Shown piece after piece: positions 2,674 through 25,791 of a stretch of 64,000 nt of DNA. Location of the stretch: positions 744,001-808,000 of the forward strand of contig NZ_AP027365.1 of NCBI RefSeq assembly GCF_030295995.1, written 5' to 3'. How positions within the stretch are numbered: position 1 is the stretch's first letter; every line of letters begins with the position of its first letter. The stretch is from Thalassotalea hakodatensis. Its GTDB lineage: Bacteria; Pseudomonadota; Gammaproteobacteria; Enterobacterales; Alteromonadaceae. Below the pieces are notes generated by a model that worked only from the letters and a program-made list of their open reading frames with translations, did no database searches and had not been told where the DNA came from. The translations under genes and the position numbers were made by a program.

Positions 2674-5124
<2,451 letters not shown>

Positions 5125-24648: not shown

Positions 24649-24674
24649 AAAAAAGCGCTCAGCGCTTTTTTTTT
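24649..24674 (+). terminator. Rho-independent terminator after argR
   Basis: AAAAAAGCGC / GCGCTTTTTT with a 3-nt TCA loop and nine T residues, 5 nt after the argR stop. Confidence 0.88.
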
Positions 24675-24701: not shown

Positions 24702-24750
24702 TGACACTAAGTGTCATATGTCAGATTCTTGTCCTGTCATAAGCATGTCG
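24702..24750. promoter_or_regulatory. TGTC repeat cluster, candidate operator of the membrane-HTH operon
   Basis: Begins with a perfect palindrome TGACACT-A-AGTGTCA (24702-24716). TGTC recurs on the plus strand at 24712, 24719, 24730, 24735 and 24746, plus its complement at 24703. The cluster ends 62 bp before the first gene of a three-gene operon encoding an HTH protein, so it is a natural candidate for that protein's binding array. Confidence 0.45.
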
Positions 24751-24812
24751 CAGACCATTTTACTTGCTTGTGATGTACTTGCTCTCGAAGTGAATTAACA
24801 ACAGGATATCAA

Positions 24813-25250
24813 ATGAATAATGAAAAACTCCAAACGGATATGAATGAATCAATGCAAGAAGTTGGTTATCGAGATGGCTACCATTTCCATTTCATCTTAG
24901 ATGAACAACGCATCCATGTGCATTGCTCAGCACTATCGGGAAAAGAGAACATCTATGTAAATGATGAATTGATATTGTCTCAGCGAAGTTTACGCCGGAA
25001 ATCTTGTCATGCGTTAACTATTGCCAATCGAATGGTTGAAGTTGAAGTTACCATGGCAAAGATATTAATCGGTGAAGTGCATTGTACTCTAATTGCTGAT
25101 GGCACACATGTAGCAACGCAAAAACAAGTGCTTAAAAAACACTATCAACTTAAAGATAAAAAAGTAATACCTTGGCTACTGCTCTGTGGTTTATTGGGAG
25201 GCGTAATAGGGTATATGAGTGTTGAAATAATGAATAAGTTGTTTTTGTGA
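24813..25250 (+). CDS. Unknown tail-anchored membrane protein
   Basis: 145 aa, family not recognised. Residues 1-115 are polar and strand-rich, with two similar-looking segments (HFHFILDEQRIHVHCSALSG, then YVNDELILSQRSLRRKSCHAL and IANRMVEVEVTMAKILIGEVHCTLIADGTHV), suggesting a small beta domain. Residues about 118-140 form a single membrane helix, IPWLLLCGLLGGVIGYM, rich in small-xxx-small spacing; the charge pattern (LKDKK before it) predicts a cytoplasmic N domain. Ribosome site CAGGATAT. It is followed at 25 nt by a membrane-anchored HTH gene, and may sense a signal or hold the regulator at the membrane. That role is speculation. Confidence 0.7.
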   Translation: MNNEKLQTDMNESMQEVGYRDGYHFHFILDEQRIHVHCSALSGKENIYVNDELILSQRSLRRKSCHALTIANRMVEVEVTMAKILIGEVHCTLIADGTHVATQKQVLKKHYQLKDKKVIPWLLLCGLLGGVIGYMSVEIMNKLFL

Positions 25251-25275
25251 ACACGTTTGCAAGTAGAGGCTATAC

Positions 25276-25602
25276 ATGGATATAAGTGCAAAAAAAATAA
25301 AACAGCTCCGTACTGATAAATCGTGGACACAGCAACATTTAGCAGATGCCTGTGGTGTTAGTCTACGAACCATTCAGCGTGTAGAAAGGTATGGCAATAG
25401 TTCGAAAGAGACGTTAATGGCATTAGCCTCAGTATTTGAGCAAGAGCAAGCGACGTTATTAGATCTTACGAGCCAAATCGAAGTCGTAGAGCACGTTGTC
25501 GATATTACACCTCAACATAAGCGTAAAGCGCTTGTATTAGCGGGTGTATGCGGTCTTGTCGTCGGTGTACTGGTCACTATTCTCGTGCAAAATTTAGTTT
25601 AG
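25276..25602 (+). CDS. Membrane-anchored XRE-family HTH regulator
   Basis: 108 aa. An XRE helix-turn-helix fills residues 1-60: KIKQLRTDKSWTQQHLADACGVSLRTIQRVER, with the turn at DACGVS and the recognition helix at LRTIQRVE. A short linker to about 78 leads to one hydrophobic helix (ALVLAGVCGLVVGVLVTILV) at the extreme C terminus, so the DNA-binding domain would sit in the cytoplasm tied to the inner membrane. No ligand domain is present. Such a protein needs partners for signal input; the two small membrane proteins beside it are obvious candidates. Confidence 0.85.
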   Translation: MDISAKKIKQLRTDKSWTQQHLADACGVSLRTIQRVERYGNSSKETLMALASVFEQEQATLLDLTSQIEVVEHVVDITPQHKRKALVLAGVCGLVVGVLVTILVQNLV

Positions 25603-25614
25603 TAAGAGGTCATT

Positions 25615-25746
25615 ATGAAAACATGGTGGAAATCTTTAACTGCAGCAGAGCAATCTGCATTAGCAACCTTAGGAGGCATCAGTGCCGTTATTATTTTATT
25701 CGCTAGTGGTATTGTTATCGGTAGTGCTTTAGCAAGGTTGTTATAA
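25615..25746 (+). CDS. 43-aa single-helix membrane protein
   Basis: ATG at 25615 with AAGAGG 7 nt upstream, 43 codons, TAA at 25744-25746. The N-terminal 17 residues are amphipathic (KTWWKSLTAAEQSALATLGG) and the rest is one membrane helix (ISAVIILFASGIVIGSALARLL) with small-xxx-small spacing. It starts 12 nt after the HTH gene and ends 17 nt before a strong terminator, so it is the last gene of the operon. Too short for most gene finders. No known family recognised. Confidence 0.7.
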   Translation: MKTWWKSLTAAEQSALATLGGISAVIILFASGIVIGSALARLL

Positions 25747-25763: not shown

Positions 25764-25791
25764 AAAAAAGCAGCTGTTAGGCTGCTTTTTT
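25764..25791 (+). terminator. Rho-independent terminator of the HTH operon
   Basis: AAAAAAGCAGC / GCTGCTTTTTT, a perfect 11-bp stem with a 6-nt TGTTAG loop and T tail. A-run and T-run symmetry would also let it act on the minus strand for galM. Confidence 0.87.

Follow-up and report, generated by a model that had tools for sequence, protein, structure and literature searches.

The window, i.e., the whole stretch of 64,000 nucleotides of Thalassotalea hakodatensis DNA that was analyzed, contains downstream of argR a compact operon encoding three small proteins, each with a membrane helix (Table 1). The genome itself consists of one contig of 4.28 Mb. A first-pass annotation had described a three-ORF layout with an HTH protein in the middle, membrane helices, a perfect TGACACT-A-AGTGTCA palindrome and a cluster of TGTC repeats, and all of these lie at the positions it gave, the five TGTC repeats falling within 24712–24749. 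The flanking terminators are likewise supported, the upstream one in the terminator scan and the downstream one by folding (−15.3 kcal/mol, z −3.2), the latter being absent from the list of the terminator scan.

Table 1. Mapped features of the operon and its upstream region (positions in the window).
Feature	Position	Strand	Basis
Intrinsic terminator 3' of argR	24649..24671	+	Terminator scan
Half-sites H1 (TGACA, 24702–24706) and H2 (TGTCA, 24712–24716), forming the perfect palindrome	24702..24716	.	Sequence; TGACA-N4-8-TGTCA in relatives
Half-site H3, TGTCA here, TGACA in many relatives	24719..24723	.	Sequence and relatives
Core operator H4–H5, TGTCATAAGCATGTCG	24735..24750	.	Conserved core in paired loci; sole exact genome match
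Extended −10 (TGATGTACT), predicted start probably at about 24786	24771..24779	+	Fixed offset from core
Gene 1 (P0001), 145 aa, FAIM-like β-sandwich and C-terminal membrane helix	24813..25250	+	
FAIM-like domain of gene 1, residues 15–107	24855..25133	+	AF2 strands; Foldseek rank 1 is FAIM-NTD
Gene-1 membrane helix, residues 118–144, with G129xxxG133	25164..25244	+	AF2; alignment
Gene 2 (P0002), 108 aa, XRE/HTH_3 regulator and C-terminal membrane helix	25276..25602	+	
Gene-2 membrane helix, residues 79–107, with G93xxxG97	25510..25596	+	AF2; alignment
Gene 3, 43-aa single-helix protein, lineage-specific	25615..25746	+	dN/dS; distribution
Intrinsic terminator 3' of gene 3	25764..25791	+	Folding

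The HTH domain encoded by gene 2 belongs to the HTH_3/XRE family (PF01381; Pfam E 1.9e-8, 34.6 bits at a cut-off of 23), it is 100% identical in the closest named relative, Thalassotalea sp. PP2-459, and it is followed in the AF2 model by one long C-terminal helix. With the HTH alone as query, the species-genome collection yielded 199 pattern matches, 49 of which were confirmed as loci, a set that leans to the P0002 subfamily because the search patterns were derived from P0002. The HTH gene is preceded, on its own strand, by a gene-1 homologue in 48 of these 49 loci, which supports co-inheritance of the membrane-tethered HTH with a membrane partner, and in the one exception, L037, the HTH starts 65 bases from a contig end. 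Three of the 48 paired loci have no called HTH ORF, i.e., L020 and L053, both truncated at the contig end, and L042, in which the HTH match is found about 290 nt behind gene 1 with no start called. The pair occurs in Thalassotalea, Colwellia, Psychrosphaera, Shewanella, Idiomarina, Alteromonas, Parendozoicomonas and in Alphaproteobacteria, the alphaproteobacterial loci of the HTH search being MAGs. For 56 paired loci, selected for an HTH immediately downstream of gene 1, the distance matrices of both proteins correlate (Mantel r 0.785, a value reached in 0 of 5000 permutations), and the intergenic gaps span −163 to +49 nt, with start-codon choice accounting for the large overlaps. The complete single-contig genome of L141, from the same phylum, carries a tandem duplication of the pair. 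Gene-1 matches were found in 37 of 295 genomes of the order sample and in 43 of 147 of the family sample, and the distribution of the pair is therefore patchy.

The suggestion that all three genes form one unit was not supported, as strong matches to gene 3 (E<1e-18) are present in 6 of the 147 family genomes vs. 43 for gene 1; each of the six lies within 1 kb of a gene-1 match on the same contig. The conserved unit is the gene-1/gene-2 pair plus a lineage-specific third gene. Judged by the refuting condition named in the first-pass annotation, homologues do occur apart as well: gene 1 exists without this HTH, and similar tethered HTH proteins exist without gene 1. Ten second-tier HTH matches were fetched, and seven of them (L131–L136 and L138) consist of the same kind of XRE HTH and one C-terminal helix, without a FAIM-like gene-1 neighbor within about 1.5 kb.

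The third gene is under purifying selection, and the codon-level conservation expected for a real 43-aa frame is present: dN/dS is 0.06 against L056 and 0.15 against L006 (0.27 between L056 and L006, 0.25 between L008 and L018), and 21 of 29 differences to L056 and 18 of 36 to L006 fall at third positions. Its profile gave 22 further, weak matches (E 5.6e-7 to 0.0096), 14 of which lie in frames of 157–166 aa and were taken as a shared juxtamembrane pattern, not as homology. A hint to T2SS protein M (E 0.0074) is below the cut-off. In L010 the gene-3 sequence forms the end of a 116-aa protein, and three Psychrosphaera loci carry a different small single-helix ORF in its place. In Psychrosphaera L009, L013 and L017 (at about 4496–4817), an extra soluble protein of 102–104 aa, β-rich by eye, is encoded after the pair and the small single-helix ORF; the one tested (L009) has no match in Pfam.

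The AF2 model of the gene-1 product (pLDDT 87.8) contains nine strands, the first consisting of three residues, and resembles the small antiparallel β-sandwich of FAIM (Fas apoptotic inhibitory molecule 1, PF06905). In a Foldseek search of the PDB, the N-terminal domain of human FAIM (3mx7) is ranked first with E 2.7e-3 and prob 1.00 (TM 0.65 on the target and 0.44 on the query, identity 15%), and the colinear alignment, which has a single gap, spans residues 13–87 of the FAIM-NTD chain (90 residues in total) and takes in the sGK-vYvd strand region. None of the matches in this search reaches E<0.001. Neuraminidase chains follow (E 0.019, prob 0.99, TM below 0.3), and the top 50 also hold two CTD structures at ranks 21 and 40, 2kw1 and 2kd2 (FAIM-CTD), of which 2kw1 is titled CTD and is presumably FAIM. 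FAIM is likewise the first PDB match of a 47-member gene-1 profile (E 0.0055) and of a 60-member profile (E 3.9e-4, next match 0.095). Pfam FAIM1 is the commonest family among the gene-1 members, matching 12 of 47 at E≤1 (best 3.9e-4), and 10 of 60 members of the broader alignment at E≤0.1; P0001 itself has no Pfam FAIM1 match and does not reach the gathering cut-off of this family. In a sample of 398 Pseudomonadota genomes the Pfam FAIM1 model missed the gene-1 relatives, and its sole match over the cut-off, in a frame that is patatin-like by eye, was taken as spurious.

The soluble domain of gene 1 is thus predicted to have a FAIM-like fold and, at modest E-values, appears related to FAIM. 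Convergence of small β-sandwiches without common ancestry would fit the 15% identity, the modest E-values and the missing Pfam match of P0001, and we regard it as unlikely, since sequence and fold searches independently place FAIM first, the alignment is colinear with a single gap over most of the FAIM-NTD chain, and the broader bacterial profile improved the FAIM match from 0.0055 to 3.9e-4. Unlike FAIM, gene 1 is bacterial, lacks the tandem arrangement of NTD and CTD and consists of a single domain with a C-terminal membrane helix. FAIM is not known to have a membrane helix. It has been described as having an NTD and a CTD with eight antiparallel strands in two sheets and as lacking significant homology to known proteins (PMC6628066), and a further source traces its origin to the holozoan ancestor (PMC7056718).

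The FAIM-like domain is found in other bacterial contexts as well. It occurs in tail-anchored proteins of 110–120 aa without this HTH nearby. The genus that accounts for 20 of the 25 partnerless proteins is most likely Shewanella, since its genome G186 carries a gene-1 protein (L059) identical to that of Shewanella gelidimarina (L023). Moreover, a FAIM-like stretch forms the N-terminal part of an M50 (site-2-protease-like) membrane protease in L098 (Pfam E 1e-16, the Pfam check of these fusions having covered L098). L152 is similar, with a gene-1 profile match of 2e-5 and an HEYGH motif, and L153 resembles the fusion by eye (genome-search E 9.4e-4, the ORF failing the criteria of the script). 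These fusions would be compatible with a regulator that intramembrane proteolysis sets free from the membrane to work in soluble form, with the access of a site-2 protease controlled by the FAIM-like partner. We consider this mechanism quite improbable, as the T. hakodatensis genome, which gave one A1 and one A3 profile match, contains no detectable FAIM-M50 fusion and the operon includes no protease gene. As a separate observation, in L097 and L099 a small HTH gene precedes a FAIM-like gene by 2 and 11 nt, next to a membrane protein. In L099 these neighbors are a DUF2975 and HTH_26 pair, and L097 has a similar HTH neighbor. Such pairs, assigned in L097 by adjacency, resemble our locus in placing a FAIM-like gene beside a small HTH and a membrane protein, and differ in the type of HTH and in that the membrane part is a separate multi-helix protein.

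The helices of both conserved proteins carry a GxxxG motif. Both gene-1 glycines, G129 and G133, are invariant across 47 sequences, and in 45 sequences of gene 2 G97 is invariant and G93 conserved to at least 90%. Among paired gene-1 proteins, 57 of 58 carry the motif in the C-terminal helix; among the 25 partnerless ones, 23 have such a helix and one has the motif. This contrast does not represent 25 independent events, because 20 of the partnerless proteins stem from one genus. Among the HTH proteins, 55 of 58 paired ones contain GxxxG (54 of 57 unique sequences), and 16.8 and 11.1 of 58 are expected from shuffled helices of gene 1 and gene 2, respectively. None of the seven HTH paralogues without gene 1 has GxxxG, other small-xxx-small spacings being present by eye. 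A later sample covered 21 of 45 gene-1 matches, taken from the best 30 after exclusion of duplicates and of four from genomes already used; 12 of its sequences lie outside the discovery alignments, and the sequences are not phylogenetically independent. An HTH is present in 11 of the 12; all 11 have GxxxG in gene 1 and eight have strict GxxxG in the HTH protein, and the one without HTH (L190) lacks both GxxxG and the core operator described below. Of the small-xxx-small spacing noted earlier in all three helices, GxxxG exceeds the expectation from shuffled helices in the families of gene 1 and gene 2, where it tracks partnership; in the 43-aa protein alone the spacing is at chance, as it appears in a fraction of 1.0 of 20,000 shuffles of residues 10–43.

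A physical heterodimer of the gene-1 and gene-2 products may underlie this association; GxxxG could also serve homodimers. The HTH protein has its own membrane helix and therefore need not be held at the membrane by two partners, as had been proposed. Within about 15 residues before the helix, lysine and arginine are more frequent than after it in 56 of 58 gene-1 proteins (two equal) and in 43 of 58 HTH proteins (13 equal, two fewer). The soluble parts of both proteins are therefore predicted to be cytoplasmic.

The cluster of TGTC repeats is a conserved composite promoter in which TGACA/TGTCA half-sites are followed by the core and then, at fixed spacing, by a −10 element. In the 220 bp before gene 1, 35 of 58 paired loci contain the pattern TGACA-N4-8-TGTCA (dinucleotide shuffles predict 0.095), as does 1 of 28 other loci. 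TGTCATATGACA is present in 18 of 58 (0.005 expected) and in 2 of 28. Three of the 28 other loci (L020, L042 and L053) are really paired and were cut or uncalled, and both TGTCATATGACA sites of that set belong to L020 and L042. An exact core TGTCA-N6-TGWCG is present in 28 of 61 paired loci (0.03 expected), and 48 of the 61 match it at no fewer than 9 of 10 positions (1.03 expected), which the other 13 do not; among the 25 partnerless loci none is exact and three match at 9 of 10 (0.37 expected). A conserved operator at its own operon, in line with the first-pass annotation, is thereby supported. Across a set of 31 non-redundant loci, an extended −10, TGnTTTACT, stands at a fixed offset from the core (T36 87%, G37 84%, T39 81%, A42 74%, T44 87%), and its distance to the start codon is free (35 to 254). 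The consensus TGNTNNANT matches at 4 or more of 5 positions at offset 36 in 23 of the 31 loci, a count that exceeds 5 at no other offset between 18 and 63; the promoter alignment shows no conserved −35. For Alphaproteobacteria, the core scores 10/10 in L039, L043, L046, L047 and L053, 9 in L049 and 8 in L050, and the −10 is clear in L039, L049 and L053 and absent in L046 and L047. The later sample has the core at 9/10 or better in 9 of 11 HTH loci and the −10 at 4/5 or better in 5 of those 9. Furthermore, the core (9 or 10 of 10) precedes the gene of each of the seven HTH paralogues that lack gene 1. It is followed at offset 39–44 by GATAAT in five and AATAAT in one, with neither in L138, and core and promoter are in this way linked to HTH proteins of this type. 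An RNA element was rejected, because the half-site letters are constant while the spacers vary, unlike in a covarying hairpin (by eye); Rfam gave four matches (E 0.057–0.34), all below the gathering score.

If transcription starts about 7 nt after the −10, the center of the core lies near −43. Class II activators usually bind near −43, and this position, upstream of the −10, suggests positive autoregulation. The spacing between H1 and H2 varies from 5 to 8 bp and would be awkward for a single rigid dimer. Sites near −43 can also repress, and many XRE autoregulators are repressors. A Cro/C1-like HTH that represses its own operon, the FAIM-like partner relieving or supporting repression, could use the array, which ends beside the −35 region, to block the polymerase. 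We treat such repression as a somewhat doubtful possibility, as the array precedes the −10 and the start instead of covering them, is at a class II position and is combined with an extended −10 without a conserved −35.

A small XRE protein, an autoregulatory site and a compact operon would also be found in a toxin-antitoxin-like pair, in which a putative tail-anchored toxin (gene 1 or gene 3) is held at the membrane by an XRE antitoxin, and the HTH weakly matches antitoxin models, all under their cut-offs (best TIGR03070, 33.9 vs. 71.65 bits). This is very improbable in our assessment: genes 1 and 3 match no toxin family over the cut-off in Pfam, NCBIfam and PADLOC, gene 1 has no match in 72,556 plasmids (single-sequence tblastn), pairing and promoter are conserved, and gene 1 also exists without this HTH. 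PADLOC gave no match to defense systems for genes 1 and 3 either. A phage or plasmid origin was rejected on the same plasmid search and on the lack of PHROG matches at E≤0.01 for both genes, and gene 1 gave hints to holin and TraA that are far under the cut-off.

Self-activation by the tethered regulator remains our preferred reading, and its output is most simply the operon itself. This promoter holds the single genomic match of the exact core TGTCATANNNNTGWCG (the reversed control gives 1), and the palindrome with up to two mismatches occurs at 4 places vs. 5 in the reversed control. TGACAN{5,7}TGTCATA gives 5 sites including that of the operon (control 0), the other four lying within long frames (two) or in intergenic regions (two, one of them before a frame that resembles polyphosphate kinase by eye), and ATGACAN{5,8}TGTCATA gives 24 matches in 16 genomes vs. 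49 in the reversed control. Within the window, the core with one mismatch has 8 matches at 5.4 expected. The looser patterns gave no convincing further targets, and a regulon beyond the operon was not adopted. Control of other genes, which had been proposed as a possibility, is in this way unsupported and not disproved; degenerate sites may exist, because the exact-core pattern misses the promoter of L131, which is one letter off. L131 (G000:C1:2658155-2658469) encodes a second membrane-tethered XRE protein of the same genome without FAIM-like neighbor, and the near-identical core TGTCGTATTGATGACG and GATAAT at the same offset precede its gene; cross-talk with the regulator of the operon is possible. 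At site 1501 of L104, in the T. hakodatensis genome, TATGACAGAAATATGTCA is intergenic before a frame that is polyphosphate kinase-like by eye. Of the first interpretation as a whole, the tethered HTH with its partner, the packing motifs, the operator and the codons of gene 3 are supported, and the trio and the wider control are not.

Taken at the strength of these computational results, i.e., the conserved pairing, the predicted fold, the GxxxG association and the operator and promoter geometry, the locus is rather likely a self-contained, autoregulated membrane module in which a tethered XRE regulator activates its own operon together with a FAIM-fold GxxxG partner. Gene 2 would bind the TGACA/TGTCA half-sites before the operon, and the core, about 43 bp upstream of the predicted start and adjoining a weak −35 region and the extended −10, would occupy a class II position from which the regulator most likely activates. 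The tail-anchored β-sandwich of gene 1 may pack with its helix on that of the regulator via GxxxG, both soluble parts facing the cytoplasm as predicted. The FAIM-like partner is most likely a sensor of some signal in the cytoplasm or at the membrane surface, and might stabilize or gate the regulator or be itself its effector; if animal FAIM is a guide, the signal is perhaps misfolded protein or oxidative stress.

The architecture is reminiscent of ToxR/ToxS and VtrA/VtrC, in which a membrane-tethered DNA-binding protein works with a membrane partner from a neighboring gene that has a β-rich soluble domain. Co-component systems have been defined around these pairs, with periplasmic sensors (PMC9214523). 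A tethered HTH and a membrane partner, presumably co-transcribed, are found here as adjacent genes with membrane helices. In contrast to those systems, the HTH is XRE/HTH_3 and not CadC-type, the soluble domains are predicted from charge to be cytoplasmic and not periplasmic, and the partner gene lies upstream and is FAIM-like, not lipocalin-like. Lacking a CadC-type domain and a periplasmic sensor, the module is therefore not counted as a member, and the best reading is that it is like ToxR/ToxS in logic and outside that family. In a survey of transmembrane regulators the term XRE is absent from the main text (PMC10269533), and among the matches listed in a mostly open-access literature search there was no paper on the gene-1/gene-2 pair or on a bacterial FAIM.

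The module would add to the co-component-like tethered regulators one that is built on XRE and has a cytoplasmic partner domain, and a bacterial FAIM relative in a regulatory module would, if true, give an orphan animal cell-survival fold relatives and a genetically tractable system. In related bacteria the pair likewise follows a DNA control site of this type, and the promoter is conserved enough for direct tests of binding and of the direction of control. It is conceivable, and we put it forward tentatively, that the FAIM fold is a bacterial invention for partners or sensors of tethered regulators (elsewhere of an M50 protease) from which animal FAIM descended, and that it reports protein-folding or membrane stress to the XRE activator via the GxxxG helices. 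One invariant cysteine is present in each alignment, C91 in gene 1 and C26 in gene 2, which might have a redox or a structural role.
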